In this document: one piece after another, positions 10,187-54,547 of the stretch
Layout of the letters: every line of letters starts with the position of its first letter
Numbering within the stretch: the stretch's first letter is position 1
DNA from: Planotetraspora mira
GTDB lineage: Bacteria > Actinomycetota > Actinomycetes > Streptosporangiales > Streptosporangiaceae
NCBI RefSeq assembly: GCF_016863275.1
Contig: NZ_BOOO01000001.1
Location: forward strand, 310,001 to 374,000
DNA length: 64,000 bases
Reading direction: 5' to 3'
The notes under the pieces: generated by a model
Databases searched by the model: none
What the model was told of the DNA's origin: nothing
Seen by the model: the letters and a program-made list of their open reading frames with translations, nothing else
Translations under genes and position numbers: made by a program

Positions 10187-10364
10187 CGAATCCGTGCATG
10201 ATCACAAAGCGCGAACGCCCTGGTCGCGAGCGCTACGCGCGAAAGTGCGCATGATCACGGTTGACGAAACCGCAGCTCACGGACCCCATCTCCGAACCTG
10301 CGCATGATCACGCCCGATGTGAGGCCAGCTCAGGGCTGCCTTGCACGAAGGTGTGCATGATCAC
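10187..10364 (-). repeat. 53-bp periodic repeat array 1 (4 cores)
   Basis: GCATGATCAC occurs at 10196, 10249, 10302 and 10355, exactly 53 bp apart each time. On the minus strand each is the start of a conserved stretch of about 19 bp, GTGATCATGCRCANNTTCG, followed by about 34 bp of largely different sequence. In that orientation the first core begins 18 bp beyond the stop of the NlpC/P60 gene ending at 10383, so the array lies in its 3' flank. The same family occurs at 30177-30400 and 54423-54547. Confidence 0.9.
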
Positions 10365-10382
10365 GCGGGAGGGGCGAGGGGG

Positions 10383-11348
10383 TCAGGGGCGGACCGCGCC
10401 GGCGAGACCGCCGTAGGCGGAGAGGCTGACGACCTTCACGACGTCGCCGGTCTGGGGCGCGTGCACGACCTTGCCGCCGCCCGCGTAGATGCCGACGTGG
10501 CCGAAGCCGGGGTGGAAGAGCAGGTCTCCGGGCTCGAGCTTGCTGGTCGACACCCGGCGGTTCGCTCCCCACGACCACATCTCGTACGTCGTCCGCGGCA
10601 GGCTCACCCCGGCGGCCCCCCAGGCCGCCTGTACGAGGCCCGAGCAGTCCCAGGAGCCCGGACCGGTGGCGCCGTACTGGTAGGGCTTGCCGACCTGCTT
10701 GTACGCGAACTGAAGGGCGGTCAGGGCGTTGCCCGACGCCGAGCCGGTGTAGGTGATGCCGGCGCTGTTGGTGTTGCCGACGTTGTAGGCGCCGAGCTTC
10801 TTCAGCAGCGCCTTCTGGTCCTTGACGAGCTTCTCCGCGTCCGCCTTCTTCTTCGAGAGGTCGGACTTGGTCTCGTTGGCGTCGTCGTAGGCCGCCTTCT
10901 GCTGGTCCCTCTTGTCCTTGAGCCCCTGGATCGCGGCCTCGTACTCCGCGAGTTGCTTCGCCCGGCCCTGCGACAACTGGTCGAGCGCGGCCATGCCGCT
11001 GAGCGCCGACTCGGGGTCGGACCCGTAGAAGACGCCTCCCAGCATCGAGACGTCGCCCGTCTGGTAGGTGTTCACGGCGATCGAGACGACCGTCTGCCGG
11101 AGCACGTCGACCTTGGAGTACTGCTTCTCGTAGTCGTCGTTGACGCTGTCGTACTTCTTCTTGGCCTTCTTCCACTTCTCGTTGGCGGCGTTGTAGTCGT
11201 CAACGATCTTGTCGGCCTTGGAGTTCAGCGTCTTCAGCTTGGCCTGGGCCTGGGCGATTGTGGGTTTTGGATCCGCCTGCGCGCTCGTCATCGGCAGCAG
11301 CAGAACCGCGGCGGCCAATCCAGTGGCCACCGGTACACGCCCTCGCAT
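10383..11348 (-). CDS. Secreted NlpC/P60 endopeptidase with N-terminal coiled coil (RipA-like)
   Basis: A 321-residue cell-wall hydrolase. Residues 1-25 are a signal peptide ending near SAQA. Residues 30-190 are a long helical coiled coil rich in Lys, Glu and Gln (as in RipA-type proteins, where such a region keeps the enzyme inactive or targets it). Residues 205-321 are the NlpC/P60 domain with catalytic Cys in WDCSGL, His in FGHVGIY and VVHAPQ. It likely cuts between D-Glu and diaminopimelate during growth or septation. Unlike the hydrolase at 8756-9331, no riboswitch is visible upstream, only a GAGGGAG ribosome site. A 53-bp repeat array follows the stop. Confidence 0.92.
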   Translation of the reverse strand: MRGRVPVATGLAAAVLLLPMTSAQADPKPTIAQAQAKLKTLNSKADKIVDDYNAANEKWKKAKKKYDSVNDDYEKQYSKVDVLRQTVVSIAVNTYQTGDVSMLGGVFYGSDPESALSGMAALDQLSQGRAKQLAEYEAAIQGLKDKRDQQKAAYDDANETKSDLSKKKADAEKLVKDQKALLKKLGAYNVGNTNSAGITYTGSASGNALTALQFAYKQVGKPYQYGATGPGSWDCSGLVQAAWGAAGVSLPRTTYEMWSWGANRRVSTSKLEPGDLLFHPGFGHVGIYAGGGKVVHAPQTGDVVKVVSLSAYGGLAGAVRP

Positions 11349-11555
11349 CGAGGCTCCCTCGGGATAGACCCTAACCGGCGGGCGCGACTCTACTGGGGCG
11401 ATCTTGGAGCTTCAACCTATTCGCAGCTATTCACGGCAATCGTCACCGATTGCGACATAAACCGTCCGAAGGGTGACCAACGGCACGGTCCAATCCCGTG
11501 CGCCCTCCCCGAGGGGCCCGATCGGGTCGATCGGGCCTCTCCCCCGGGCGGCCGA

Positions 11556-12872
11556 TCAGGTCCGGCCGAGACGGCGCAGCAGGAGGGTCGACGGGACGGG
11601 CCGGGCGCCCATCCGCCGCACGGACTCGGCCACCTCGCGGTCGGACGACACGACCGCGATCGCCCTCCCCGAGGGCTCCGCGCGGACCAGGCGCCGGATG
11701 AGATCGTCGGCGATCTCCCCCGGCGCGCTGAACATCACCCGGACGCCACGCGGCGCGGAGACATGGACGGGGCCGTTCAGCTCGGCGCCGTCGAAGACGC
11801 ACGTCACCTCGACCCGCGCCTGCACGGCGAGGCCGCCGAGCCCGGTGAGTATCCGGGACCGCTGGTCGGCCAAGGTGAGCGACGGATACCCCGTCTTGGT
11901 CACGTTGTAGCCGTCGATGATCAGATGCAGGTTGGGTATCGCCAGCAACTGGTCGAGCAGTTGGGGGTCGTCGTTGGCCAGCGCCCTGGCGGGGACCGCG
12001 CCCACCCCCGGCTCGCCGGGCTTCACGCCGGTGACGTAGTCGGCCGGCCGGGTGATCGAGGTGGGCAGGGCGAGCTCCTTGCGCAACCCGGCGGCCGCGT
12101 CCTGAAGGGCGTCCATGAGCACGCGGATGCGGGTGTCCTCGACACTTCGGCCCTCACGCGCCGCACGGCGGCCCTCCTCGAGGTGGCTCTCCGCCTCCGC
12201 GAGACGCTCCTTCAGCCTGCGCAGCTCGGTCTCCGCCGCGCCGCCCGCGGTGGCCGCCCTGCTCGTCGCCTCGGCGGTCTCGGCCTGCAGCTCGGCGGCC
12301 CTGGCCTCGGCGGACCTGACCCGCTCGCGGGCGTCGTGCAGCTTGCGCCGCAACTCCGCGTTCTCGGACCGGGCGGACCTGAGCTGCTCGCGGACCCGCT
12401 CGATCTCTTCCTTGGCCGTCGCCCGGTGGGCCGCGAGCTGCTCGCGCAGCCGCACCTCCGCCTGCTCACGCTGAGACCCGGCGGCCGCCGCCTGCTCGAG
12501 GTCGGCCCGCGCCAGCTCCACCAGGTCGGGCCACCCCGGCGGGCGGGTCAGATAGGCCGCGGCCGCCACCATCACCGGCTCCGCCGCCGGGGGCACCGTG
12601 CCCTCGGCGAGGGCGGCCACCAGCTCGGGCCAGGCCTCCTGGACGGTCTCCGCGACCAGCTCGCGGAACTCCTTGTCGTTCTCCAACTGCGCGGCGATCG
12701 GGGCGCTGCCGAGCCGGGCGCGCTTGCGCGGGTCGAACTTGGCGATCCCCCGCAACGGTCCCGGAACCGCTGTCGCGGACATGGAGCCGAGCACCTGGGC
12801 CGCGAGCTCCACCACCTGTAACCGGACCTGTTCAGGCAACGGACGAGACAGGCCCTCTCCGGCTGAACTCAT
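11556..12872 (-). CDS. NYN-domain (YacP/Rae1-like) putative RNase with coiled coil
   Basis: A 438-residue protein. The N-terminal 130 residues are an alpha-helical region of unknown role. Residues about 130-260 are a strongly charged coiled coil (Arg, Glu, Ala heptads). The C-terminal 170 residues are an NYN domain of the YacP type (HLIIDGYNVTKTGYP, then FDGAELNG, then EIADDLIRRLV and AVVSSDREV). The conserved acidic residues at these points form the metal site of the PIN-like nuclease fold. The Bacillus relative Rae1 cuts mRNA on ribosomes; a similar RNA role is inferred. A clear site (AAGGAG) precedes the ATG. Confidence 0.85.
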   Translation of the reverse strand: MSSAGEGLSRPLPEQVRLQVVELAAQVLGSMSATAVPGPLRGIAKFDPRKRARLGSAPIAAQLENDKEFRELVAETVQEAWPELVAALAEGTVPPAAEPVMVAAAAYLTRPPGWPDLVELARADLEQAAAAGSQREQAEVRLREQLAAHRATAKEEIERVREQLRSARSENAELRRKLHDARERVRSAEARAAELQAETAEATSRAATAGGAAETELRRLKERLAEAESHLEEGRRAAREGRSVEDTRIRVLMDALQDAAAGLRKELALPTSITRPADYVTGVKPGEPGVGAVPARALANDDPQLLDQLLAIPNLHLIIDGYNVTKTGYPSLTLADQRSRILTGLGGLAVQARVEVTCVFDGAELNGPVHVSAPRGVRVMFSAPGEIADDLIRRLVRAEPSGRAIAVVSSDREVAESVRRMGARPVPSTLLLRRLGRT

Positions 12873-12990
12873 CCTGCCGCTCCTTGTACTTGTCCTTTCG
12901 TCAAGGGTACGGCTGACGCGCCCCTGTCCGAGTCGCCTCGTCGAGTCGGCCCGCCCGGGACCATCCCGGACGAAAGCGCACTAATCCACG

Positions 12991-13020
12991 TTGTTCAAGT
13001 AGGAAATAAATGGATATGCT
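12991..13020 (+). promoter_or_regulatory. Putative sigma-70-type promoter of the BMP transporter operon
   Basis: TTGTTC (12991-12996) and TATGCT (13015-13020) are 18 bp apart in an AT-rich patch of otherwise GC-rich DNA. Transcription would begin near 13027 and give a leader of about 55 nt before the ATG at 13082. No riboswitch fits in that leader. Confidence 0.5.
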
Positions 13021-13081
13021 GCACCAGATGAGCCGGGCATATCGCCCGTACGATGGATCTCAAGGAACAAGACGACATAGC

Positions 13082-14122
13082 ATGCGACCTGCCTCGAAGA
13101 TCGCCCTCCTCACGTCCGCCGGCCTCGTGCTCTCCCTCGCGCTCGCCGCGTGCGGCGGCGACTCCACCGGCCCGGCCGCCGCTTCGGCGTCCACCAAGTC
13201 GATCATCCTGATCACCCCGAACCCCGTCGGCACCGACAGCTTCCTGCAACTCGGCGTGAAGGGCGCGCAGGAGACCGCGAAGGAGATCGGCGCCTCGTTC
13301 AAGCTGTACGAGAGCAAGGACCCGACCAGCATCGCGCAGAACGTCGACGCCGCGGTCCGCGCCAAGCCCACGGTCATCGTCGGCATCAGCTTCTCCTTCG
13401 ACGACGTCTTCACCACCGTCCCCAAGCAGCACCCCGGTCAGAGCTTCCTTGAGATCGACTCGTGCCCGAAGGCCCAGGCCCCCAACCTGACCTGCGTCTC
13501 CTTCAAGGAGCACGAAGCGGCCTACCTGGCGGGTGTGGAGGCCGGACTGCTGTCCAAGAGCGGCAAGCTCGGCGTCGTCGCCGCCCTCGACTCGCCTTTC
13601 ATCCACCGCTGGATCGACCCGTTCTTCGCGGGCGCCGCGTCGGTGAACCCGAAGGCCACCGGGACCCCGCTCTTCGTCGGAGGCAGCAACCCCTTCAGCG
13701 ACCCCGCTCGCGCCAAGTCTCAGGCCCAGACGCTCATCGGCCGGGGCGTCGACGTGATCGAGGCGGCGGCGTCCGGCGGGAACCAGGGCGTCTTCGAGGC
13801 CGCGGCGGCCGCCGGGGCGAAGGCCTTCGGCGTGGACGTCGACCAGTGCCCCCAGAGTCCGGGCAACGTCATCGACAACGTCATCAAGCACGTCGACGTC
13901 GCCGAGGCCGCGGCGATCAAGGACATCGCGGCGGGCAAGGCCGGCGGCGTGAAGGTCTACGGCCTTGCCGAGGACGGCGTGGGCGTGAACGCGCTCGACA
14001 CCGACCTCACCTCGTCGAAGTGCGCGGTCGCGGCGAGCCCCGATGTGATCGCCAAGGTCAAGCAGGTCCGTGACGACATCGTGGCGGGCAAGATCACGGT
14101 CGCGGACCCCCTGGCAGGTTAG
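13082..14122 (+). CDS. BMP-family nucleoside-binding lipoprotein
   Basis: The 346-residue product is the solute-binding component of a BMP (Med/PnrA) type ABC importer, a family that usually binds purine nucleosides. It has a lipoprotein signal with lipobox LAAC and acceptor Cys24, then the BMP fold (GTDSFLQLGVKGAQETAKE, and GKLGVVAALDSPFIHRW). The ATG at 13082 was chosen because it gives a proper signal peptide; the frame extends upstream to 13010. It is first in a chain with the ATPase and two permeases, followed directly by nucleoside-sugar salvage enzymes, so methylthioadenosine, deoxyadenosine or another nucleoside is the likely cargo. Confidence 0.88.
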   Translation: MRPASKIALLTSAGLVLSLALAACGGDSTGPAAASASTKSIILITPNPVGTDSFLQLGVKGAQETAKEIGASFKLYESKDPTSIAQNVDAAVRAKPTVIVGISFSFDDVFTTVPKQHPGQSFLEIDSCPKAQAPNLTCVSFKEHEAAYLAGVEAGLLSKSGKLGVVAALDSPFIHRWIDPFFAGAASVNPKATGTPLFVGGSNPFSDPARAKSQAQTLIGRGVDVIEAAASGGNQGVFEAAAAAGAKAFGVDVDQCPQSPGNVIDNVIKHVDVAEAAAIKDIAAGKAGGVKVYGLAEDGVGVNALDTDLTSSKCAVAASPDVIAKVKQVRDDIVAGKITVADPLAG

Positions 14123-14124
14123 GG

Positions 14125-15762
14125 ATGCCAACTGGCGGCGACTCGGAGGCGCCGGCCGCCGAACTCGTCGGCATCACCAAGCGGTTCGGTCCCGTCGTGG
14201 CGAACGACGGGATCGACCTGGCGATCAGACGAGGCGAGATCCACGGGGTGGTGGGTGAGAACGGGGCCGGCAAGTCCACGCTCATGTCCATCCTGTACGG
14301 CCTGCGGCGGCCGGACTCCGGGCATGTGCTGAGGAACGGGACGCGCGTGCGCCTGCGCTCCCCCGCCGAGGCCATCGGCCACGGCCTCGGCATGGTCCAC
14401 CAGCGTTTCCGGCTCTTCCCCGATCTGACCGTGGCCGAGAACATCGTGATCGGGGCCGAGCCGACACGCCGGGGCGTCGTCGACCTGGCCGCCGCCGGGC
14501 GGGAGATCGAACGGCTCGGCGAGGTCTTCGGCCTGTACGTGGACCCCGCGTCGAGGGCCGGCCGCCTGCCGGTCGGGGTGCGACAGCGGGTGGAGATCCT
14601 CAAGGCGCTGTATCGGGAGGCCGAGGTGCTGATCCTCGACGAGCCGACGGCGGTGCTCACCCCCGGCGAGGCGGCGCGGTTGTTCGACGTGCTCAAGACG
14701 GTCACGCGGACGGGCACGTCCGTCGTGCTGGTGACGCACAAGCTCAGCGAGGTCCTCACGGCCACCGACCGCGTGACGGTGCTCCGCCGGGGCCGGGTGA
14801 CCGGCCGGTTCGTCACCGCGGAGACGACGGCGGACGAGCTCGTCATCGCCATGATCGGCCGCTCGCTGGGCCCGCCGCGCCGACCCGCCGCACCCGATGG
14901 CGAGCCGGACGGAACTCCCGCCGGTCGGCCGTACGCCCTGGAGGTCGACGGGCTGACCGTCCTCGACCGGGACGGGGTTCCGAGATTGTCGGACGTGTCC
15001 TTCGGCGTACGCCCAGGAGAGATCGTCGGCATCGCGGGCGTCGCCGGAAGCGGGCAGCGCGAGCTCATCGACACCGTGACCGGCCTCCGCCCACCGGGAT
15101 CGGCGACCTCCGGCGGCGTGCTGCTGTCCGGCAGGCCGGTACGGCGAGGCAGGGAACCCGCGATCGCCTACGTGCCCGAGGACCGGCACGGCCGGGCCAC
15201 CGCCGCCACCATGAGCCTCGCGGAGAACCTGGTCATGGGCGACCACCGGACCCCCGCTCTGCGCGGCCGGGCGGGGCTGTCGGCCGCCGCGGTGCGCGAA
15301 CGGGCCAGGACGCTCGTCGAGAGATTCGCCATCCGCGCCGCGTCCGTCGGCGACCCGATCTCCGCCCTGTCCGGAGGGAACGCGCAGAAGGCGGTGCTCG
15401 CCCGCGAGCTCTCCCGTGGGACTCCCGTGATCGTGGTCGAGGAGCCGACCCAAGGAGTGGACGTCGGGGCGCAGGAGCAGATCCACGGCCTCCTGTCCGA
15501 GGCCCGCGCCGCGGGCCAGGCCGTGCTGCTCCAGTCGAGCGAGCTGTCCGAGCTGAGGGCGCTCGCCGACCGCATCCTGGTGATGTTCGAAGGCCGCGTG
15601 GTGGCCGAACTGGCGGGCGACGAGGCCACGGAGGAACGGCTCGGCGCGGCCATGACGGGGGCGACCGCGACACCTGGGCAGGCGGCACCGGCCGCGGAGA
15701 CGGAAAGCTCCGCGACGGCTCGGGAACAGGGACCGGCCGACGCGAAGGGAACGACGCGGTGA
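14125..15762 (+). CDS. Nucleoside ABC importer ATPase (two ATPase domains)
   Basis: A 545-residue double ATPase of the NupA/YufO group that powers BMP-dependent nucleoside uptake. Domain 1 has Walker A GENGAGKST near residue 49, signature LPVGVRQRVEILKAL and Walker B EVLILDEPT. Domain 2 has a degenerate Walker A (GVAGSGQRE) but an intact signature LSGGNAQK, the usual asymmetry of this group. The last 30 residues are a polar Ala/Glu-rich tail. It starts 2 bp after the binding-protein stop and overlaps the first permease by 4 bp. Confidence 0.92.
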   Translation: MPTGGDSEAPAAELVGITKRFGPVVANDGIDLAIRRGEIHGVVGENGAGKSTLMSILYGLRRPDSGHVLRNGTRVRLRSPAEAIGHGLGMVHQRFRLFPDLTVAENIVIGAEPTRRGVVDLAAAGREIERLGEVFGLYVDPASRAGRLPVGVRQRVEILKALYREAEVLILDEPTAVLTPGEAARLFDVLKTVTRTGTSVVLVTHKLSEVLTATDRVTVLRRGRVTGRFVTAETTADELVIAMIGRSLGPPRRPAAPDGEPDGTPAGRPYALEVDGLTVLDRDGVPRLSDVSFGVRPGEIVGIAGVAGSGQRELIDTVTGLRPPGSATSGGVLLSGRPVRRGREPAIAYVPEDRHGRATAATMSLAENLVMGDHRTPALRGRAGLSAAAVRERARTLVERFAIRAASVGDPISALSGGNAQKAVLARELSRGTPVIVVEEPTQGVDVGAQEQIHGLLSEARAAGQAVLLQSSELSELRALADRILVMFEGRVVAELAGDEATEERLGAAMTGATATPGQAAPAAETESSATAREQGPADAKGTTR

Positions 15763-16868
15763 GTGCCGTCAGGCTCGGCTCCCTGGCCCGAGGGCGTGCG
15801 GCCGCGCTCGGGCCGCTCGGCAGGAGCGCCCCCGCCGTCCTGGCGGTCGCCGGGGCGTTGGTGGTGACGACGCTGGTCATGCTCGTCGTGGGAGTGGATC
15901 CCTCAGACGCCTACCCCGCCCTGATCAGAGGCGCGGTCGCCGACGGCAACCTCGAGTACACGATCGGGGCCTTCGTGCCGACCCTCGGCATGGCCCTGGC
16001 CTTCGCGATCCCGCTGCGGACCGGCGAGTTCAACCTCGGAGGCGACGGCCAGATGGCGCTCGGCGGAGTGGCCGCGGCGGCGCTGGCGCTACGCGTGCCG
16101 CTTCCACCCGGGGTCGCCGTCGCTCTCCCGCTCGTCGTCGCGGCGCTCACCGGCGCGGTGGTGGCCGGGATCTCAGCGCCGCTGCACACCCGATTCGGCA
16201 TCCCGGCCATCGTGACGACGCTCCTGGTCAGCACGCCCGCGGTGGCCCTGTCGTCCTACCTGGTCCGATTCCCGCTCGCGGAGCCGCGCACGGGGATCGC
16301 CGAGACGCCCCTGCTTCCGGACGCCGCGCACCTGCCCGCCATCGGCGCCAGCGGCTATGTGACCATCGGCCTGCCACTGATCCTTCTGCTGACCGCCGGC
16401 TGGATATATGTCGACCGCCGCACGGTGGCGGGCTACGAGATCCGGGCCACGGGCGCCAATCGCGAGTTCGCGCGATACGGCGGCGTCCGGGTGGACCGGC
16501 TCGCGGTGGTGACGATGGCGGGTGGCGGCGCGTTCGCCGGCCTGGTGGGCGGGCTCATCGTGCTGGGTCCGCCGTTCCGTTTCGTCGACGGGGCGCTGAC
16601 CGCTCCCGGGTACACCTTCACCGCGATCGCGGCCGTGCTCCTGGCGACCGGGCGACCCATCGCCGTCCCCTTCACCGTCGCGCTGATGACGATCCTGCAG
16701 GTCGGCGGAGAGGGGATGGAGCGTGACGCGGGTGTTCCCAGCCAGCTCACCCAGGTGATCCAGGGGCTCGTCATCGTGATCGTGGCCGCGCTCGCGACCA
16801 CGCGCGTCCTGCGGGAAAGGCGCGCGCGGCGGGCTCAGGAGATCGACGTCGGAGAGGCGAACGCGTGA
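15759..16868 (+). CDS. Nucleoside ABC importer permease 1
   Basis: A 369-residue membrane protein of the BPD_transp_2 family, with about nine hydrophobic segments and a basic N-terminal extension of about 25 residues. It carries the family features PLRTGEFNLGGDGQMALGG and EIRATGANREFARYGGV. The latter is the cytoplasmic loop that couples to the ATPase. It overlaps the ATPase gene by 4 bp and the second permease by 4 bp, so the three are probably translated together. With the partner permease it forms the heterodimeric channel for nucleosides. Confidence 0.92.
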   Translation: MSAVRLGSLARGRAAALGPLGRSAPAVLAVAGALVVTTLVMLVVGVDPSDAYPALIRGAVADGNLEYTIGAFVPTLGMALAFAIPLRTGEFNLGGDGQMALGGVAAAALALRVPLPPGVAVALPLVVAALTGAVVAGISAPLHTRFGIPAIVTTLLVSTPAVALSSYLVRFPLAEPRTGIAETPLLPDAAHLPAIGASGYVTIGLPLILLLTAGWIYVDRRTVAGYEIRATGANREFARYGGVRVDRLAVVTMAGGGAFAGLVGGLIVLGPPFRFVDGALTAPGYTFTAIAAVLLATGRPIAVPFTVALMTILQVGGEGMERDAGVPSQLTQVIQGLVIVIVAALATTRVLRERRARRAQEIDVGEANA

Positions 16869-29864: not shown

Positions 29865-30152
29865 ATGGTCACCGCGATCGTGCACATCAAGGCCGATGTC
29901 CACCGGATCCCCGAGGTCGCCCAGACCATCGCCGAGATCGAGGGTGTCAGCGAGGTCTACTCGATCACCGGCGAGTTCGACCTGCTGGCCATGGTCCGGG
30001 TCGAGCGGTACGAGGAGATCGCCGAAGTGATCCCCGGCCGGGTCAACAAGGTGCCCGGCGTGACGCACACCGAGACGCACATCGCCTTCCGGACGTACTC
30101 CCGTCACGACCTGGAGGCCGCCTTCGCCATCGGCCTAGGCGAATCCGACTGA
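29865..30152 (+). CDS. Stand-alone Lrp/AsnC ligand-binding (RAM) domain protein
   Basis: The 95-residue product is just the RAM domain of Lrp/AsnC regulators (VTAIVHIKADVHRIPEVAQTIAEI, GVSEVYSITGEFDLLAMVR), lacking the helix-turn-helix. Such proteins form rings, bind amino acids and may modify full-length partners. An AGGAGAG ribosome site precedes the ATG, and a TAGGGT at 29817-29822 may be its -10. It is followed by the second 53-bp repeat array. Confidence 0.9.
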   Translation: MVTAIVHIKADVHRIPEVAQTIAEIEGVSEVYSITGEFDLLAMVRVERYEEIAEVIPGRVNKVPGVTHTETHIAFRTYSRHDLEAAFAIGLGESD

Positions 30153-30176
30153 TCTCCCCCCAAAAAACCCTCCAGC

Positions 30177-30400
30177 GTGATCATGCACAGATTCGGCGGC
30201 AGCCCCGCCGACCTGCGCCTCCCCATGTCGTGATCATGCACAGGTTCGGCGGCAGCCCCGCCGACCTGCGCCTTCTCACGGCGTGATCATGCACAGATTC
30301 GGCCGTAAGCCCTCCGGCCTGCGCGGACATCGTTCGTGATCATGCACAGGTTCAGCCAAAGGCCTCCCGGCCTGCGTGAACGCCTTTCGTGATCATGCAC
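30177..30400 (+). repeat. 53-bp periodic repeat array 2 (5 cores)
   Basis: GTGATCATGCAC starts at 30177, 30230, 30283, 30336 and 30389, spaced 53 bp each time. In the first four units the core is followed by AGATTCG- or AGGTTCA-like sequence and a short inverted repeat (for example TCGGCGG/CCGCCGA in units 1 and 2, GGCCG/CGGCC in unit 3), then CTGCG. The fifth is cut off after the core. The array begins 24 bp after the RAM gene stop and lies between it and the convergent trpD. From 30401 to the trpD stop no feature is seen. Confidence 0.93.
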
Positions 30401-30511: not shown

Positions 30512-31555
30512 CTAGCGGGCCAGGGACCGGCTGACCTCGACCCACCGGTCGAGCGTCGTCGCGGCCCGGCCGGAGTCGACCGCGTCGGCGGCGCGCGCGA
30601 AGGCGGCGCTGAGAGCGGGCGCCAGGTCGCCGTCCGGTTGGTCCAGCGCGACCAGCGCGGCCGCGGCGTTCAGGAGCACCGCGTCACGCACGGGCCCGGT
30701 CTTCCCATTTACCAGGTCACGTACGGCCGCCGCGTTGAACTCCACGTCACCGCCCCGGAGATCTCCCGGCTGCGAGCGCGGGACGCCGATCTCGGCGGGG
30801 TCGAACAGGGTCTGGGTGGCGGTGCCGTCCCTGACCACGAAGACGGTGGACGGCGCCGCGGTCGACAACTCGTCGAGGCCGTCCTCCCCGCGGAACACCA
30901 GAGCGGAGACCCCGCGCTCGGCGAACACACCGGCGATCACCGGCAGCATCCGCGCGTCGTAGACGCCGATCGCCTGGGCCGACGGCCTGGCCGGGTTGGT
31001 CAGCGGCCCGAGGAAGTTGAAGATCGTCGGGACGCCGAGCTCCTTGCGGGCCGGGCCGGCGAACCGCAGGGCGGGGTGGTAGACCGGCGCGAAGCAGAAC
31101 GCGATGCCTGCCTCCACGGCGACCCGTGCCGTCACCTCCGGGGGCAGATCGAGGATGATCCCCAGATGCTCCAGCACGTCGGCCGCGCCGCACAGGGACG
31201 AGGCGGCCCGGTTTCCGTGCTTGACCACACGAGCCCCGGCGGCCGCCGCGACGATCGCCGCCATGGTGGACACGTTGACGGTGTGCGCCCGGTCACCGCC
31301 CGTGCCGACGACGTCGACGACCGGCCCCTCCACCGTGAGCGGGGTGGCCCGGTCGAGCATCGTCCGCGCCAGGCCGGTCACCTCGGCCACCGTCTCGCCC
31401 TTGGCACGCAGCGCGACCACGAAGGCGGCGATCTGCACCGAGGTCGCCTTCCCCGAAAAGATCTCCCCCATGGCCCACGACGTCTCGTCCGACGTCAGGT
31501 TCTCGCCGGAGAGCAGGGCGGTCAACAACGAGGGCCAAGTGGTGCGCGTGTCCAT
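30512..31555 (-). CDS. trpD: Anthranilate phosphoribosyltransferase
   Basis: Transfers phosphoribosyl from PRPP to anthranilate in tryptophan synthesis. The 347-residue protein has the PRPP motif [19 protein letters not shown], the anthranilate-site [21 protein letters not shown] and the loop [21 protein letters not shown]. Length and motifs are standard. It is isolated from other trp genes, in the position seen in actinobacteria beside the ctaE-qcrCAB locus. A small receiver-like gene lies just upstream on the same strand. Confidence 0.95.
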
Positions 31556-45252: not shown

Positions 45253-45259
45253 GGGCGGG

Positions 45260-47918: not shown

Positions 47919-48533
47919 GTGTTCCGACGCCGTATCCAGATGCCTACGGACGACTCCCCCGTCCCTGTAGCTGATCCTAAACCCCACACGACTCCGAGCA
48001 AGGGGCGTCCCACCCCCAAGCGGAGCGAGTCACAGGGCCGACGCCGCATGCCCATGACGGCCCCGACCAACCGCAAGGAGGCCTACCGCCTCCAGCGTGA
48101 TCGGGACAAGACGGCACGCGTCCGCGAGCGGGAGGGCCGGCTGCGTGGGGACGAGCGGTACCTTCAGCCCCGCGACCGCGGTCCGGTGCGGAAGTTCGCC
48201 CGCGACTGGGTGGATTCGCGCCGGGTCCCCTGGGCGTACGCCCTGCCGGCGATCCTCGCCCTGCTGATCCTGACGGTGATCCCGTTCCCCACGCCGATCA
48301 GGGCCTTCTTCTTCTACATCTACAACTACTCGGTTCCCGTGATGATCCTCCTGCTGCCGCTGTCGTACTTCATGGCGCTGCGGGTCAAGAAGGCGGCCGC
48401 CGAGAAGTTCCCCGACGAGAACCTCAAGGGCATCGGCTTCTACGCCGCCATGCGGGCGCTCCAGATGCGCCCCCTGCGGTACCCGAAGCCCACCGTCCGT
48501 CCCGGCGGCGCCCCCGTCCCACCCAAGGCCTGA
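47919..48533 (+). CDS. DUF3043 family membrane protein
   Basis: A 204-residue actinobacterial protein of the DUF3043 family. The first 100 residues are very basic and polar (GRRRMPMTAPTNRKEAYRLQRDRDK). Two hydrophobic helices follow (PWAYALPAILALLILTVIPF and YSVPVMILLLPLSYFMAL), then a cytoplasmic tail. TAGGCT at 47906-47911 lies 7 nt before the GTG, suggesting a leaderless message. Function unknown. Confidence 0.85.
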   Translation: MFRRRIQMPTDDSPVPVADPKPHTTPSKGRPTPKRSESQGRRRMPMTAPTNRKEAYRLQRDRDKTARVREREGRLRGDERYLQPRDRGPVRKFARDWVDSRRVPWAYALPAILALLILTVIPFPTPIRAFFFYIYNYSVPVMILLLPLSYFMALRVKKAAAEKFPDENLKGIGFYAAMRALQMRPLRYPKPTVRPGGAPVPPKA

Positions 48534-48583
48534 TTCCGTACGGCGGAGCACGCACTTTCTGCCACGGCTTTTCTGATCACGGC

Positions 48584-48621
48584 ACGGCGCCGGCGGCCTC
48601 CACGGCCACCGGCGCCGTTGT
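48584..48621 (+). terminator. Terminator of the DUF3043 gene
   Basis: A 10-bp stem (ACGGCGCCGG with CCGGCGCCGT) and a loop of about 15 nt, followed by TTGT, lies 50 bp after the DUF3043 stop. Confidence 0.65.
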
Positions 48622-48690
48622 CGTATGCGGGGCGAACCGGACCAGGCGTGCCCGGGCGCCTCCGTTCACCGCAAGGTGGACGTCCACTCC

Positions 48691-48770
48691 CGAACCCCAT
48701 CGGACCGGCCGGGCCCTCTCGAACCCCATCGGACCGACCGGGTTCCCTCGGCCCGAACCCCCGGTCGGGC
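48691..48770. repeat. Short direct repeats upstream of the multicopper oxidase
   Basis: CGAACCCCATCGGACCG occurs at 48691 and 48720 (29 bp apart), with a partial third copy (CGAACCCCC) at 48754. They lie in the 366-bp gap 48534-48899, which otherwise shows only the DUF3043 terminator and the leader of the oxidase gene. An operator array or a replication-slippage product are both possible. Confidence 0.55.
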
Positions 48771-48899
48771 CAAGGTGCGATCAAGTTCAGCCCTCACCCG
48801 TGGCGTTTCACGATGATCTTCGAAGCCCCCGCCACTACGCTCCAGGATTTGCCGTCGGATCGCTGGGGGGCGAAACGATCTCGACAAGGGGCTGAACCA

Positions 48900-50909
48900 T
48901 TGGACACCAGCAGGCGGAAGTTCTTCGGGCTCGCGACGGCCGTCGCCGTGGCGGGCGCCACGGCGCCGACGACGGCCGCGAACGCGGAGCGGGCCACAGG
49001 AGTCCCCGGGACACCGGTCCCGTCCGGGACACCGGAGCCGCCCGTCGCATCCGGGACGCCAGGAGAGCCGGGAGCCGGTGAGGGGCGGGCCGGACCGGGC
49101 GGAGGGGGCCGGGACCTCGCGGGCGCGGACGGGCCGGTGACGGCCACGCTGACGCCGTTCGCCGACGCCCTGTACATCCCTCCCATGATCAGACCGGCCG
49201 GCGGGGAACTGTCGATCGAGATGCGGGCCGTGACCAAGCGCCTGCACTCGCAGCTTCCGCCGACCCGGCTGTGGACGTACGAGGGCTGCTTCCCCGGCCC
49301 GACGATCGAGGTGCGCCGCGAGCAGCGTCTGCGGGTCGCCTGGACGAACCGGATCGAGAACGAGACCGTCCCGGTGACGGCGGTGCAGGCGTTCGCCGAG
49401 GTCGGCAAGCCCACGCTGCCGAACACGCTGCCCGGGAGCGGCGGCGCCGTGCCGCGGGACGACGTCGCGGGGATCCCGCCCTGGCTGGTGGTCCACCTGC
49501 ACGGCGCGATCACCGGGGGCGGCCAGGACGGCTGGTCGGAGAACGGGCACCTGGCGGGCGAGGTGCAGTACTCGGAGTACCTGAACAAGCAGCCCTCCGC
49601 GGCCCTGTGGTACCACGACCACGCGATGCACACCTCGACCTGGACCCTGTTCGCCGGCCTGTTCGGCATGTACTGGATCAGGGACGAGGAGGAGGACGCG
49701 CTCGGGCTGCCGAGGGACGGGTACGAGATGCCTCTCGTCCTGTGTGACCGGAACCTGGAGACCGACTCCTCGGGCCTGCTCACCGGCCGGCTCCTGCACA
49801 AGGTGACGTTCAGGAACGAGATCCAGCGGGTCACCCGGCCGTTCGAGGGGCCGTACACGCTGGTGAACGGGATCATCTGGCCCCATCTGGACGTCGAGCC
49901 CCGCTGGTACCGGTTCCGCGTGCTGAACGCGGCCAACTCCAGAACCTTCCGGCTGGCGCTGATCGACGAGACGACCGGCAAGCCCGTCACCGGCGCGATC
50001 AAGCAGATCGGCACCGACGGCGGCCTGCTTCACTCGCCCGTGCCGATCGAGCCCTTCCTGTCACTCGCCTCGGGCGAGCGCGCCGACGTGCTGATCGACT
50101 TCAGCGCGTACCAGGGGAAGCGCCTGCGCCTGGTCAACACCCTCGCCGGCACCACACCGGGCGAACCGGCGGCGGGCATCCCGTACCCGGAGGTCATGCA
50201 GTTCCGGGTCGGCCGGCCGGCCGCGGGGCGCAACCGTGAACAGGAGGGCGGACACCGCGGCGGCGACACCTTCGAACTGCCGCGGGTCGTCTCCCCCGGC
50301 TTCGTCCGGACCACCCACGACAGCCTCCCGGTGGACCGTACGCACCGGATCGTGCTCACCAAGGTGGGCGGGGGCAAGCACTCGGAGATGTGGGAGATGG
50401 AGAAGGTGAACGCCGACTCCGTCAAGCTCGGGACCGACGGGATCGTCCAGCTCAAGACCGCGGACGGCAACGTCCTCACCTACCGGCGCATCGCCAACGG
50501 GCCGGACGACGTCGTCAACTACTTCGCGATGGAGGGCGCCTGGGAGCTCTGGACGTTCATCAACGCCACCGATTTCCCGCACCCGATGCACATCCACCTG
50601 ATGCGCTTCCAAGCCCTTTCTCGGGATATTTACGACATCAGTGGATTCGACGCGACGATGGGCGCCACGACCAAGCCCATCGCGTACAAGCAGGCCGGGG
50701 TGCTGGAGGAGGGCGAGAAGGGCCTCAAGGACGTCATCCAGGTCGGCGTGAACGAGGTCGTCACCATCGCCGGCCGGTTCGAGGGGGCGACCGGGCGCTT
50801 CGCCTACCACTGCCACCTGCTGGAACACCAGGATGAGGGCATGATGCGCCCGCTCGTGGTCTTCCCGCACGCGGTCATGGCGATGCGTGCGGGACACGGT
50901 CACATGTGA
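48900..50909 (+). CDS. Tat-exported multicopper oxidase (CotA/phenoxazinone synthase-like)
   Basis: The product (669 residues from the TTG at 48900) oxidises phenols, aminophenols, bilirubin-like compounds or metals with O2. All four copper motifs are present: HLHGAI, WYHDHAMH, HPMHIHLM and HCHLLEHQDEGMM, the last with axial Met. The N terminus DTSRRKFFGLATAVAVAG is a twin-arginine signal, followed by a Pro/Gly-rich linker of about 50 residues. I chose the TTG because AAGGGG lies 8 nt upstream and the Tat motif then falls at residues 4-10; an ATG at 48813 extends the frame. Confidence 0.9.
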   Translation: MDTSRRKFFGLATAVAVAGATAPTTAANAERATGVPGTPVPSGTPEPPVASGTPGEPGAGEGRAGPGGGGRDLAGADGPVTATLTPFADALYIPPMIRPAGGELSIEMRAVTKRLHSQLPPTRLWTYEGCFPGPTIEVRREQRLRVAWTNRIENETVPVTAVQAFAEVGKPTLPNTLPGSGGAVPRDDVAGIPPWLVVHLHGAITGGGQDGWSENGHLAGEVQYSEYLNKQPSAALWYHDHAMHTSTWTLFAGLFGMYWIRDEEEDALGLPRDGYEMPLVLCDRNLETDSSGLLTGRLLHKVTFRNEIQRVTRPFEGPYTLVNGIIWPHLDVEPRWYRFRVLNAANSRTFRLALIDETTGKPVTGAIKQIGTDGGLLHSPVPIEPFLSLASGERADVLIDFSAYQGKRLRLVNTLAGTTPGEPAAGIPYPEVMQFRVGRPAAGRNREQEGGHRGGDTFELPRVVSPGFVRTTHDSLPVDRTHRIVLTKVGGGKHSEMWEMEKVNADSVKLGTDGIVQLKTADGNVLTYRRIANGPDDVVNYFAMEGAWELWTFINATDFPHPMHIHLMRFQALSRDIYDISGFDATMGATTKPIAYKQAGVLEEGEKGLKDVIQVGVNEVVTIAGRFEGATGRFAYHCHLLEHQDEGMMRPLVVFPHAVMAMRAGHGHM

Positions 50910-50935
50910 CGGCATTTGATCTAATGTGTCGGATC

Positions 50936-51937
50936 ATGGAACACCGCCATCTCGGCCGCAGCGGTCTCATGGTCAGCGAGATCAGCTACGGCAACTGGAT
51001 CACCCACGGCTCTCAGGTCGAGGAGGACGCGGCGCGCGCGTGCGTGCAGGCGGCGCTCGACGAGGGCATCACCACGTTCGACACCGCCGACGTCTACGCG
51101 GGGACGAAGGCCGAGGAGGTTCTCGGGCGGGCGCTGAAGGGCGTGCGCCGCGAGTCGCTGGAGATCTTCACCAAGGTCTACTGGCCGACCGGTCCCGGCC
51201 GCAACGACCGGGGTCTGTCCCGCAAGCACATCACCGAGTCGATCCACGGATCGCTCCGGCGGCTGCAGACCGACTACGTGGACCTCTACCAGGCCCACCG
51301 CTACGACGTCGAGACGCCTCTCGAGGAGACCCTCAAGACCTTCGACGATCTCGTACGGCAGGGCAAGGTCCTGTACGTCGGGGTCAGCGAGTGGTCGGCC
51401 GAGCAGATCGCCCGGGCCGTCAAGATCGCCGATGACATGGGCTTCGACCGGCTCGTCTCCAACCAGCCGCAGTACTCCATGTTGTGGCGGGTCATCGAGG
51501 CCGAGGTCGTCCCCCTGTCGGAGAAGGAGGGCATCGGCCAGGTCGTCTTCTCTCCGATCGCGCAGGGCGTGCTCACGGGCAAGTACCTGCCCGGTCAGCC
51601 GCCGCCCTCGGGATCGCGCGCGACGGACGAGTCCGGCGGGGCCAACTTCATCAGCCGCCTCCTCCACGACGACGTGCTCCAGCGCGTGCAGGACCTCAAG
51701 CCCATCGCTGCGGACCACGGCCTCACGATGGCCCAGCTCGCCGTCGCCTGGGTGCTGCAGAACCCCAACGTCTCGTCGGCCATCGTGGGCGCGAGCCGTC
51801 CCGAGCAGGTCCGGGACAACGTCAAGGCGTCCGGCGTCACGCTCGACGCGGACGCCATGAAGAAGATCGACGAGGTGCTCGGCTCCGTGGTGGAACGCGA
51901 TCCCGCCAAAACCGTGAGCCCCGCCCGGCGTCCGTAA
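50936..51937 (+). CDS. Aldo/keto reductase (voltage-gated potassium channel beta-like)
   Basis: A 333-residue NADPH-dependent reductase of the AKR6-like group. The catalytic tetrad is present: Asp and Tyr in FDTADVYAGTKAEE, Lys in IFTKVYWP and His in YQAHRYD. The NADP-binding region is SSAIVGASRPEQVRDNVKA. The ATG at 50936 matches the family start (MEHRHLGRSGLMVSEI); the frame opens a little upstream. Physiological substrate unknown. Its stop touches a 21-bp tandem repeat. Confidence 0.92.
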   Translation: MEHRHLGRSGLMVSEISYGNWITHGSQVEEDAARACVQAALDEGITTFDTADVYAGTKAEEVLGRALKGVRRESLEIFTKVYWPTGPGRNDRGLSRKHITESIHGSLRRLQTDYVDLYQAHRYDVETPLEETLKTFDDLVRQGKVLYVGVSEWSAEQIARAVKIADDMGFDRLVSNQPQYSMLWRVIEAEVVPLSEKEGIGQVVFSPIAQGVLTGKYLPGQPPPSGSRATDESGGANFISRLLHDDVLQRVQDLKPIAADHGLTMAQLAVAWVLQNPNVSSAIVGASRPEQVRDNVKASGVTLDADAMKKIDEVLGSVVERDPAKTVSPARRP

Positions 51938-51998
51938 CCCCGTCAGGCCTGGCGCAAACCCCGTCAGGCCTGGCGCAAACCCCGTCAGGCCTGGCGCA
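51936..51998. repeat. Three perfect 21-bp tandem repeats at a gene end
   Basis: The unit AACCCCGTCAGGCCTGGCGCA repeats at 51936, 51957 and 51978 with no differences (first 20 bases AACCCCGTCAGGCCTGGCGC). The third copy encodes the last residues and stop of the small minus-strand gene 51985-52191. Because 21 is a multiple of three, each copy repeats the RQA-stop codons in that frame. The first copy touches the reductase stop. Confidence 0.93.
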
Positions 51999-52191
51999 GG
52001 GACATCCCCGCGTATTCGACGCGCTCGTCCTCCATGAGCGTGACCTGCTCGACACCGGTCTCGAGCAGGTCGCGCCAGGTCTCTCCCAGCCACGACTCGG
52101 CGTCGGCCTGGCTGGAGAAGATCTCACGCGGCAGCGGGCGGTCCGTCAGCTCGCCGCCCTTAGCGTCCTCGTAACGCCAGCGCCATGTCAT
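51985..52191 (-). CDS. Small conserved actinobacterial protein
   Basis: A 68-residue protein with MTWRWRYEDAKG at the start, a central helix (SSQADAESWLGETWRDLLE) and VTLMEDERVEYAGMSLRQA at the end. I recall similar proteins being widespread in actinobacteria, but know no function. The ATG at 52191 was chosen because upstream codons are low-complexity Arg/Pro. The C-terminal codons lie in the tandem 21-bp repeat. Confidence 0.7.
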   Translation of the reverse strand: MTWRWRYEDAKGGELTDRPLPREIFSSQADAESWLGETWRDLLETGVEQVTLMEDERVEYAGMSLRQA

Positions 52192-52351
52192 GCCCGCACG
52201 CCCTTTCCGAACCGTCCTCACCACGTGGGTCTCCCCCCGTGGGATGCAGCCGACCCTATATCGGCGTGGGCTCGGCGGGGGGCGAGGCGCGTGCCGGGAA
52301 CGTCGGTGCGCGGCGCTAGGGTCGGGCACCTCGTGAAGAACCGGAGGTCGC

Positions 52352-53413
52352 GTGGAGGTCTACCTGGAGGGCACGGCCGGGCCAGAGGGCTGGCCCGCCC
52401 CCGGCTGCGGATGCGCGTCCTGCGGACGCCTGGCCCCCGGGCACCGCAGACCGGCGTCGATCCTCCTCGACGGTCATCCGTGGCTTCCCGGTCAGGCACT
52501 GCCCGAGGGATACGAGGTGAGGCGGGGGCCCGACGGCGACGAGGTCATCGCGCCTGACGGAGGGCGCCTCCTCCACTCCGCCGCCTCCCGGCGGCCCGGC
52601 TCGCGGCCGCACGCGCCGGAACCCTTCGATCTGGTGCTCATCGACCTCCTCGACCGGCCGGAACGCCTCGGCGACCTGCGCCGTCGCGGGCTGGTGTCCC
52701 CTCAGACACAGGTGGTCGCCGTGGGCGTCGACCATCGCGTCACCTCGGAGGCCGAGCTGGCCAGGAGGCTCGCGTTCTGGGACGCGAGAGCCGTACCCGA
52801 CGGGACCTCGTTCGGCGTCGTCGTCCATGGCCCGCCGGACGAGGCTCCTCCCCGGCCCCGGGGCCGCACGCTGCTGCTCGGCGGCTCCCGTTCGGGCAAG
52901 TCGGCGGAGGCCGAGTTACGCGTGGCCGCCGACCCCGACGTGACCTATGTGGCGACGGGGCCGTCGGGCGGCGACGACCCGTCCTGGCTGGCCCGGGTGA
53001 AGGCCCATCGGGACCGCCGCCCTGCGCACTGGCGGACGGTGGAGACCACCGACCTCGCTCCCCTGCTCGCGGACCCACCGGGCACGCTCCTGATCGACGG
53101 GCTCGGGACCTGGCTGGCGGCGGTCTTCGACGAGTGCGGCGCGTGGCCCGGACAGCCCGGCTCCGCGGACGAGTCCGAGGTTCCCGCGGCCGACCAGGTC
53201 GCCCGGCGTTGCGACGATCTCGTGGCGGCCTGGCGGCGGGCGCCCGGCCGGGTCGTGGCGGTGAGCGACGAGGTCGGGCTCGGGGTGATCCCCGCCACCG
53301 CGAGCGGACGGCTGTTCCGCGACGCGCTCGGCAGGCTCAACCAGCGGCTCGCGCAGGAATCGGAGGACGCGGCTCTGGTCGTCGCGGGACGGGTGCTGCC
53401 GCTGCCGCTCTGA
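52352..53413 (+). CDS. cobU: Bifunctional adenosylcobinamide kinase/guanylyltransferase with N-terminal MBL-like domain
   Basis: Phosphorylates adenosylcobinamide and transfers GMP to it in cobalamin assembly. The C-terminal 180 residues are CobU, with P-loop GGSRSGKSAEAE and VSDEVGLGVIPATASGRLFRDALGRLNQRLA. The N-terminal 165 residues resemble the start of PhnP-like metallo-beta-lactamase proteins (EGTAGPEGWPAPGCGCASCGRLAPGHRRPASILLDG) but lack the metal-binding HxHxDH, so this part is probably inactive. The GTG follows GGAGG. One TTA codon (in GAGTTACGC, near 52915) is present. Confidence 0.9.
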   Translation: MEVYLEGTAGPEGWPAPGCGCASCGRLAPGHRRPASILLDGHPWLPGQALPEGYEVRRGPDGDEVIAPDGGRLLHSAASRRPGSRPHAPEPFDLVLIDLLDRPERLGDLRRRGLVSPQTQVVAVGVDHRVTSEAELARRLAFWDARAVPDGTSFGVVVHGPPDEAPPRPRGRTLLLGGSRSGKSAEAELRVAADPDVTYVATGPSGGDDPSWLARVKAHRDRRPAHWRTVETTDLAPLLADPPGTLLIDGLGTWLAAVFDECGAWPGQPGSADESEVPAADQVARRCDDLVAAWRRAPGRVVAVSDEVGLGVIPATASGRLFRDALGRLNQRLAQESEDAALVVAGRVLPLPL

Positions 53414-53447
53414 GCCGGGCCGTCCCCGGTCAGTACGATCGTCGGTT

Positions 53448-54380
53448 GTGTCCGGAACGCCGCAACAGCCTGGCCTTCTTTCCGCATGGCGGTTCACGGT
53501 CGGCATGCTGACCGTGTTCCCGGTGCGCATCGGGACCGTCGACCGCGCGGTCGCCGGCCGTGGCATGGCACTGGCGCCCTTCGCCGGCATGTCGCTGGGG
53601 CTCGTGGCAGCGGGGGTCCTCCTCATCGTGCAGTACCTGTCGGGGTCCGCGCCTCTGGCCGCGACGCTCGCCGTCGGCACGCTGGCCTGGCTGACCCGCG
53701 GGCTCCATCTGGACGGGCTGGCCGACCTCGCCGACGGGCTGGGCAGCCGCGCGCCGTCGCAGCGGGCGCTCGACATCATGAAGCAGTCGGACATCGGGCC
53801 GTTCGGCGTCGTCACACTGATCTTCACGCTCCTCGTCCAGATCGTCTCGATCGCACGGGTCCAGACCGCCGCGCCGCATCCGGCGCCCCTGTACGGAGCA
53901 CTCGCCCTCGTGGCCGCCTGCACCACGGGCAGACTCGCCGCGACCTGGGCCTGCCGTGAAGGCGTGCCCCCCGCGCGCCCCGACGGCCTCGGGGCCCTCG
54001 TCGCCGGCGCCGTACGGCGGAGCCAGGCGATCACGACGACGGCGGTGTCGGCGGCCGTCCTCGCCCTGGCGGCACTCTCGATCCACCTCTGGACGGGACC
54101 CGCTCACTTCTGGACGGGATCCGCCTGCCCGGCCGTCCCCGACCTCTGGTCGGCAGGCAAGGCTTCCGTGGCCGTGGGCCCGGCCCGCCTCTGCGAGGCG
54201 ATCGGCGTCCCCGCAAGCATGTTGCTCGTCCTCGTGCTCTCGCTGACGGCGGGGCTCGCCGCCGCCGCCCTGCTGCGCCGGCGGGCCGTACGACGGCTAG
54301 GCGGCATCACGGGCGACGTGCTCGGCGCGCTGGTCGAGACCGCCACGACCGTGAGCCTGCTCGTCTGGGTCCTGCTTTGA
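53448..54380 (+). CDS. cobS: Cobalamin synthase
   Basis: Joins adenosylcobinamide-GDP and alpha-ribazole phosphate to make cobalamin phosphate at the membrane. The 310-residue protein has about seven membrane segments and the conserved acidic motif RGLHLDGLADLADGLGS, followed by MKQSDIGPFGVV. TACGAT (53434-53439) lies 8 nt before the GTG, so the message may be leaderless. About 40 residues with the repeated WTGPAHFWTGSA near residue 210 look like an insertion relative to shorter CobS. It follows cobU; a 53-bp repeat array lies downstream. Confidence 0.92.
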   Translation: MSGTPQQPGLLSAWRFTVGMLTVFPVRIGTVDRAVAGRGMALAPFAGMSLGLVAAGVLLIVQYLSGSAPLAATLAVGTLAWLTRGLHLDGLADLADGLGSRAPSQRALDIMKQSDIGPFGVVTLIFTLLVQIVSIARVQTAAPHPAPLYGALALVAACTTGRLAATWACREGVPPARPDGLGALVAGAVRRSQAITTTAVSAAVLALAALSIHLWTGPAHFWTGSACPAVPDLWSAGKASVAVGPARLCEAIGVPASMLLVLVLSLTAGLAAAALLRRRAVRRLGGITGDVLGALVETATTVSLLVWVLL

Positions 54381-54422
54381 CGGCCGGTTTCCCGGCGATT
54401 TCCCGGCGAAACGGCCTTCCCG

Positions 54423-54547
54423 CGAACTCGCGCATGATCACAAATCGTGACGTCGCCGGTCAGGCACGTGATCATCGAATCCGCGCATGATCACGCCTGA
54501 AATCAGGGCTGGTCGGGCGGCATATCACCGAGCCTGTGCATGATCAC
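54423..54547 (-). repeat. 53-bp periodic repeat array 3 (3 cores)
   Basis: GCATGATCAC occurs at 54432, 54485 and 54538, 53 bp apart. On the minus strand each begins the family stretch GTGATCATGCRCRNRTTCG or close to it. The middle unit also has an inverted copy (GTGATCAT at 54468) that could pair with the core. The array lies in the 262-bp gap between cobS and pepA. Unlike the other two arrays, its orientation is opposite to the gene that ends before it. Confidence 0.9.

Follow-up and report, generated by a model that had tools for sequence, protein, structure and literature searches.

Arrays of a 53-bp phased repeat in Planotetraspora: constrained spacing and a possible role as rows of protein-binding sites at gene ends

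When examining a 64,000-nucleotide stretch of the Planotetraspora mira genome (the window, from whose first letter positions are counted), we observed three intergenic arrays of a ten-base core, GTGATCATGC, that together hold 12 exact copies (4 on the minus strand, 5 on the plus strand and 3 on the minus strand) and in which the core-to-core step is 53 bp in 9 of 9 intervals, exactly as a first-pass annotation of the sequence had reported. Comparison of orthologous arrays indicates that this spacing is under selection at the DNA level. The reading that we tentatively favor, while giving it slightly less than even credence, is that the arrays are phased protein-binding sites that most likely act as a transcription barrier at gene ends. 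Mobility and RNA hairpins are the usual explanations for repeats scattered through bacterial genomes, whereas here the constraint falls on DNA spacing, at many sites, and is accompanied by lineage dialects and a case of natural decay.

Array anatomy and the constraint on spacing

The one-mismatch cores in the window number 18, compared to a mean of 3.64 (maximum 9) in 100 shuffles. A search for the 53-bp recurrence across the whole genome and in relatives, which the first-pass annotation had proposed, bore the pattern out: the genome (9,025,981 bp in 100 contigs) contains 972 exact cores, 475 on the plus and 497 on the minus strand, against 0 copies of the reversed-pattern control, and 622 core pairs are spaced exactly 53 bp. 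On C1, the contig of the window (382,220 bp; 13 arrays and one lone core), 52 of the 59 nearest same-strand spacings below 400 bp equal 53, the remaining ones being 106 in three cases and 18, 21, 35 and 52 once each; cores without the 53-bp step, which the annotation had named as evidence against itself, come down on this contig to the single lone core. A scan of C1 with a weight matrix built from 344 distinct units yielded 66 units above 10 bits, one of them isolated (16 bits), whereas first-order simulated sequence gave no unit above 10 bits and a maximum of -0.8. Because only 7 of the 120 positions above 5 bits on C1 and a further contig, C2, score below 10, and 4 score between 10 and 30, intermediate forms are few. 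Three other stretches (L216 and L217 from G000:C3:1-40000 and L220 from G000:C50:1-20000) are array-free, unlike C1 and C2, with one position above 5 bits that has three core mismatches, and some parts of the chromosome may be avoided by the arrays. Cores are present in all five genomes of the genus, at 402 to 1158 copies each: P. mira (G000), P. thailandica (G001), P. phitsanulokensis (G002, with fewer arrays), P. kaengkrachanensis (G003) and P. silvatica (G004).

The unit consensus reads GTGATCATGC ACAgGTTCG, a variable part, YGACCWGC (unit positions 33-40), a variable part, ACnC (45-48), a variable part and C at position 53, so that the roughly 19 conserved base pairs per unit recognized originally capture the core region and understate the conservation beyond it. 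Dependencies within the unit involve only close positions (12-14, 44-45 and 14-15), and the six pairs of the sole candidate hairpin show no covariation, their mutual information lying below the 99.9% quantile of the null; an RNA hairpin inside the unit is therefore rejected. The arms are polar and contain 2 to 6 cores each. In 76 of 81 two-arm loci, drawn from Planotetraspora, Planotetraspora sp. A-T 1434 (G085, filed under another genus, g80) and Microbispora (a name that, for the other g86 genomes, follows from Microbispora sp. H11081, G209), a plus arm is followed by a minus arm, that is, the two face inward; 4 loci are mixed and 1 is reversed. All arrays of the window are single arms, as are 44 of the 97 Planotetraspora loci, whereas the facing layout, which the window does not display, is found in the other 53. 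Variable-part identity is 0.434 between adjacent units, against 0.374 between random units, and 0.520 (n=50) between the outermost opposite units of facing arms; the second opposite units are about as alike as random ones (0.381, n=47) and the third only slightly more so (0.438, n=26), for which reason a full palindrome of facing arms is rejected. The gap between facing arms shows a period of about 10.75 bp in Microbispora (R 0.74, null 99% quantile 0.45, n=38, related loci not being independent). For Planotetraspora (n=51), R is 0.35, compared to 0.40, and not significant; G085 (n=11) shows no such period. In one P. thailandica locus (L140, 6120-6870, with the box variant GTGATCATGCAGAAGTTCG), neighboring units are nearly identical within an otherwise diverged array; judging from their sequence, this is a recent tandem duplication, so units apparently can duplicate in tandem.

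The constraint on spacing was gauged on 30 linked orthologous locus pairs, of which 25 were aligned, the five with duplicate G003 loci being left out; the aligned pairs are not fully independent because some share a locus. Orthologous arrays retain place and orientation. Among the 92 units compared, which were selected for an exact core in a single species (18 without a partner counterpart were set aside), core substitution is 1.1% and spacer substitution 39.6% and 40.2%, and 86 of the 92 are free of indels. Control windows of 53 nt were taken from 72 array-less gaps, G000 versus G003 only. Of 175 such windows, 16 had large gaps and were excluded; 94 of the remaining 159 are indel-free, with substitution averaging 0.150, and among those with more than 20% substitution only 12 of 43 are, compared to the 86 of 92 units (Fisher 5e-15). 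Single-arm loci (11 loci, 26 units, 3 set aside) show 3.1% core and 42.5% spacer substitution with 24/26 units indel-free, and two-arm loci (14 loci, 66 units, 15 set aside) show 0.3% and 38.9% with 62/66; the last cores of arms have 5.4% substitution. Since the units remain indel-free despite spacer divergence of about 40%, since single arms behave alike and since hairpin covariation is lacking, the alignments argue that it is the DNA spacing itself that is selected, as the first-pass annotation had surmised. Moreover, single arms are equally constrained, and therefore arm-to-arm RNA pairing is not required.

Gene ends, relatives and dialects

Genes were called with a simple purpose-made caller, and many stretches were chosen because they bear arrays. 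Within this scope, 166 of 239 arm starts have a same-strand stop as the nearest feature, 69 a gene start, and 4 lie inside a called gene. The original statement that all arrays are located after a stop codon thus fits arrays 1 and 2 of the window (Table 1), with matching orientation, and array 3 only in that it follows the cobS stop, on the opposite strand; it does not hold as a rule. Among the stop-facing arms, 118/166 begin within 30 bp of the stop, and for 41 the stop codon is supplied by the TGA of the core. Of the 97 Planotetraspora loci, 39 are at convergent junctions, 49 at tandem and 9 at divergent ones; among the 1281 junctions called in total, the corresponding numbers are 243, 793 and 245, so convergent junctions are over-represented (39/97 vs 243/1281). 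Of the single arms in tandem gene pairs, 26 run in the direction of the gene and 12 against it (binomial p 0.034). On their own strand, the arms of all three groups follow a C-rich, G-poor tract some 20-30 nt long; at -6 to -20, the C fraction is 0.51-0.67 and the G fraction 0.07-0.20, compared to 0.35 for each at array-less stops, and the tract is at least as strong before single arms as before paired ones. In two Microbispora genomes, G209 (L248, 7397-10158) and G143 (L253, 9059-11835), arms about 2.6 kb apart flank the same two genes, and box positions in G216 suggest arms around these two genes as well.

Table 1. Arrays, adjoining tracts and neighboring genes in the window
Feature	Position	Strand	Remarks
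Array 1	10196..10364	-	four cores, 10355-10364, 10302-10311, 10249-10258 and 10196-10205; 53-bp steps
C-rich, G-poor tract of array 1	10365..10382	-	separates the first core from the NlpC/P60 stop codon (10383-10385); from sequence
NlpC/P60 family gene	10383..11348	-	ends 18 bp ahead of the first core of array 1
Lrp/AsnC ligand-binding-domain gene	29865..30152	+	upstream of array 2
C-rich, G-poor tract of array 2	30153..30176	+	separates the first core from the asnC-like stop codon (30150-30152); from sequence
Array 2	30177..30398	+	five cores, starting at 30177, 30230, 30283, 30336 and 30389; 53-bp steps
Presumed trpD (anthranilate phosphoribosyltransferase-like)	30512..31555	-	convergent neighbor of array 2; Pfam: glycosyl transferase family 3 domains
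cobS (cobalamin-5-phosphate synthase)	53505..54380	+	stop 51 bp left of array 3
Array 3	54432..54547	-	three cores, 54538-54547, 54485-54494 and 54432-54441; 53-bp steps
pepA (M17 leucyl aminopeptidase)	54643..56130	+	start 95 bp right of array 3

Array 1 points away from the NlpC/P60 gene, has a weaker terminal unit that reaches 10153 and corresponds to an orthologous single arm in G003. Array 2, whose end had originally been put at 30400, lies between the convergent asnC-like gene and the gene that we take to be trpD; this junction holds an array in G003 and G004 as well and is empty in G002. Array 3, between cobS and pepA, has a weaker terminal unit that extends to 54389; each of the 5 Planotetraspora genomes has an array at the junction, in G002 with a mutation in one core, and none was seen in the other 23 of the 28 genomes read, many of which have a different gene beside pepA. 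A search of the whole window against Rfam at gathering scores gave no match to the arrays, the sole result being a c-di-AMP (ydaO/yuaA) riboswitch on the minus strand (9342-9500, 82.1 bits) with a second NlpC/P60 gene (8756-9277, minus strand) downstream of it.

The strict core pair is confined to the genus (5 of the 60 genomes searched, own genome included). Pairs of the relaxed core GTGATCWTG were found in 16/250 genomes of the family, in 7 of 68 genera, three of which are represented by genomes with one or two pairs only (G077, G113 and G219). Both pairs of G113 (L259 and L260) share another word, GTGATCTTG...CAAGATCATTTCAGGAC, and look like a different kind of repeat. A sample of the class comprising 296 genomes gave matches in 5, of which two belong to other families: G341 has five pairs and G400 one. 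In each of these two, one locus contains GTGATCATGCAC boxes with the 53-bp step: facing GTGATCATGCACGTTCG boxes beside C-rich tracts in G400 (L417, 1490-1660) and a single two-core arm in G341 (L418, 1495-1570). These genomes are leads for C-tract-flanked GTGATCATGCA boxes beyond the family, and the word could have a wider distribution, possibly in shortened forms. Similar words may also occur in Micromonospora.

Each group of genomes has its own dialect. Microbispora arms start with GTGATCTTGTAGTTTGTCGCA, those of G085 with GTGATCATGCACANNTTCCCG or close variants, and those of G109 and G060 with GTGATCTTGCAGWWWCTCGCA or close variants; other genera have a different second box at a step that is, or is close to, 53 bp. 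Both flanks are present in the available Planotetraspora sequence for 14 of the 52 array loci outside Planotetraspora, and at 5 of these 14, two of which are one junction in two species, an array is found there too. At shared junctions such as relA-DUF349 and leuA, the second boxes differ. A survey of relA-DUF349 via DUF349 in 30 genomes revealed 12 arrays, a minimal one in G077, a decaying one in G222 and none in 16, some of which have a neighbor other than relA. At this junction in G222 (L393), several cores have drifted (GTGATCGTG and similar), and the array is kept in four sister Microbispora. The outer box of Microbispora (up to 3 mismatches) is found in five of 15 genomes, with 148, 51, 50 and 44 copies in the four sisters that keep arrays and 11 near-copies in G222, where the decay, to judge from the drifted cores, looks like the loss of a trans-acting factor.

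A putative transcription barrier and its alternatives

In the reading that we favor, an arm would be a polar row of 2-6 sites for one putative sequence-specific DNA-binding protein, each unit presenting, in this order, CGTGATCATGC, TTCG and GACCWG. The core of the following unit comes after five helical turns, an arrangement that would align the bound molecules on one face of the DNA and let them touch each other. Rho prefers C-rich RNA. Read-through transcripts would expose the stretch suited to Rho that is encoded by the outer C-rich, G-poor tract of about 20-30 nt, mostly just after the stop codon, the polymerase would then be stalled by the row of bound proteins, and facing arms, common between genes, would close the intergenic gap from both sides. 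We propose a row of protein-binding sites because the five-turn step is constrained, without covariation and equally so in single arms; the idea of five-turn phasing for a cooperative protein, present already in the first-pass annotation, fits the constrained spacing. A transcription barrier, with Rho as a possible partner, is proposed because arms often start close to stop codons, have a C tract on their outer side and often face each other. Judging from this anatomy, it is probable that the arrays are bound by a candidate DNA-binding protein, and somewhat likely that their dialects co-evolve with it, whereas a barrier function at gene ends, for which the tests are mixed, is tentative, a shade more so than the reading taken as a whole. 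A dedicated genome-wide system, in which one co-evolving protein on perhaps 100-200 arrays per genome (an estimate from core counts) ends or insulates transcription instead of hairpin terminators, complete with genus dialects and a built-in C-rich Rho-loading tract, would be a doubtful proposition in this joint form.

A comparison of the best 45-nt hairpin at convergent junctions with shuffles suggests that arrays replace hairpins at gene ends: in Planotetraspora, hairpins are weaker at junctions with an array (median z -0.74, n=40) than at those without one (-1.91, n=148; p 0.014). At relA-DUF349, measured in 23 of 30 genomes with G222 and G077 counted among those with cores, z falls below -2 in 9/11 genomes without cores and in 4/12 with cores (Fisher 0.036); the genomes left out are those in which relA was not found in the stretch (G000, G003, G028, G020 and G113) or lies more than 1.2 kb away (G031 and G093). 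As a general rule, however, replacement is not upheld, since it holds in Planotetraspora and fails on pooling (81 vs 197 junctions, p 0.14).

That pooled result is one of several observations that weigh against a barrier at gene ends. The hairpin contrast is null in G085 (14 vs 12, p 0.63) and reversed in Microbispora (medians -2.94 with an array, 27 junctions, and -1.25 without, 37 junctions; p 0.11), and on C1 and C2 alone it gives p 0.066 for convergent and p 0.51 for convergent plus tandem junctions; furthermore, z is below -2 at 3 of 5 array-less Planotetraspora junctions whose G209 or G085 counterparts carry arrays. With respect to placement, array 3 opposes both flanking genes and has no clear C tract, the 69 arms nearest to a gene start and the 12 tandem-pair arms that oppose the gene run counter to the expected layout, and divergent pairs do host 9 of the 97 loci. 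The pattern is missing from 234 of the 250 genomes of the family, the outer box is absent in 10 of 15 Microbispora genomes, and no binding protein was found.

The main rival of the barrier is a role in chromosome architecture, with phased arrays whose gyrase-, SMC- or nucleoid-protein-like protein bridges or anchors the chromosome and which occupy gene ends as the places of least damage. Such a role is compatible with the copy number (972 cores in 9.03 Mb), the lack of strand bias, the intergenic placement with few divergent junctions (9/97 loci vs 245/1281 junctions), the conservation of array positions between species and the loose orientation relative to genes, but it predicts neither the C-rich tract on the arm's own strand nor the close start after stop codons, and the patchy outer box of Microbispora would be odd for a general system, so we regard this explanation as rather unlikely. 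A replication-polarity signal resembling KOPS (FtsK orienting polar sequences) or Ter is not supported, given the 475 plus and 497 minus cores and the orientations mixed along C1. The arrays could also act in RNA, as terminators or 3'-end stabilizers in which two-arm transcripts pair into a long interrupted stem, the 53-bp step keeping the cores in register. The facing of arms in 76/81 two-arm loci, the resemblance of the outermost opposite units and, slightly, of the third ones, and a strong hairpin at the array center of relA-DUF349 in G109 (by sequence, also at the center of the Microbispora locus L086) are all in line with this possibility; nevertheless, second opposite units at background, the one-armed state of 44/97 Planotetraspora loci, the retention of core and spacing in single arms and the absence of covariation within units make it quite improbable.

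Still less probable is an origin from transposon ends or miniature inverted-repeat transposable elements (MITEs), in which facing arms would be ends with several transposase-binding sites and conservation would reflect mobility. What speaks for it is the uniform length, 234-237 bp end to end, of 7 of the 8 Microbispora elements with both outer boxes, the inverted 21-bp outer box in these 8 elements, the combination of an outer box with inner repeats, reminiscent of multi-site transposon ends, and presence or absence at orthologous junctions. By eye, however, no constant-length target-site duplication was seen in the 8 elements, and none of seven separated-arm pairs encloses a transposase-like gene; these observations speak against MITE mobility. 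Cores are kept while spacers diverge at fixed sites, and intermediate copies are few on C1 and C2. Plasmids and phages gave no match, nor did viral contigs searched by the exact pair pattern, so a plasmid, phage or viral origin is rejected. Finally, a lineage-specific word recognized in DNA transfer would account for ten bases repeated 402-1158 times per genome, for dialects and for inverted intergenic pairs, a pattern similar to that described for Neisseriaceae in the accessible part of the source, where such words are also common inside genes (PMC3630211). An uptake word has no need of five-turn phasing, and on the 382-kb contig all cores but one stand in arrays; this explanation strikes us as very improbable.

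If a protein does bind the arrays, the way is open to test whether phased protein rows end or insulate transcription or organize chromosomes. Because the outer box occurs in 5 of the 15 Microbispora genomes and is decaying in one of these, comparative genomics offers a way to search for a partner protein.

Comparison with known repeat systems

The literature searched, in listings that are partly incomplete and with most subscription journals outside coverage, contains no description of these arrays, and the papers containing GTGATCATGC, among the matches listed, deal with other subjects by title. The closest parallel in placement is with repetitive extragenic palindromic (REP) sequences and the bacterial interspersed mosaic elements (BIMEs) that they form. 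According to the accessible parts of two papers, these occur as hundreds of intergenic copies, mostly at tandem or convergent junctions downstream of coding regions, often supply the stop codon with their ends, and are reported to bind protein and aid Rho-dependent termination (PMC3733652, PMC2817692). The arrays resemble them in being intergenic and in tandem (49) or convergent (39) position at most of the 97 loci, as well as in supplying stop codons (PMC3733652, as far as its accessible part goes). Unlike the REP, a 20-40 bp palindrome that alternates in orientation within BIMEs, the array unit is asymmetric, 53 bp long and set in one direction per arm, and the six pairs of its candidate hairpin do not covary. 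By inspection, the Planotetraspora consensus lacks the REP tag (GTAG or CGTC at the unit end), and in the Microbispora outer box GTAG is internal. The REP-associated tyrosine (Y1) transposase, RAYT (PF01797), had no match in 7 of 12 array-bearing genomes (G000, G002, G003, G004, G085, G209 and G238), for which reason mobility of the REP/RAYT type is rejected; the other 5 of the 12 and 5 of 6 genomes with no or decaying arrays do have matches.

The terminal inverted repeats typical of MITEs are seen in 8 Microbispora elements, and 44/97 Planotetraspora loci are one-armed. The ends of Tn7, Mu and IS21 likewise contain several boxes per end, facing, with the outermost being the longest, but, unlike these, the arrays are stable at orthologous positions, with neither target duplication nor enclosed transposase seen by eye. 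Protein-roadblock terminators of eukaryotes, TTF-I and Reb1, also consist of oriented protein sites downstream of genes and embody the same logic that is proposed here; these sites are eukaryotic and associated with ribosomal DNA, so the likeness lies in the proposed mechanism only. Mycobacterial interspersed repetitive units (MIRUs) are actinobacterial intergenic tandem repeats, some types of which are near 53 bp, and were named in the first-pass annotation as the nearest comparison, with no homology shown. Kinship is not supported by the present results: MIRU copies are largely alike and vary in number, whereas neighboring array units differ nearly as much as random ones (0.434 vs 0.374) and it is the core and the step that are constrained. 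Unlike the unrelated spacers of CRISPR, the array spacers hold the conserved YGACCWGC and ACnC boxes. The DNA uptake sequence (DUS) of Neisseria is a ten-base word with many copies, lineage dialects and inverted pairs at terminators; it is common inside genes, and the accessible part of the source describes no fixed step (PMC3630211), whereas the array word is hardly ever single. Since the literature searched holds no description of such arrays, and since they lack one or more defining traits of each of the REP/BIME, MITE, MIRU, CRISPR and uptake-sequence families, they appear to be a kind apart from all of these.

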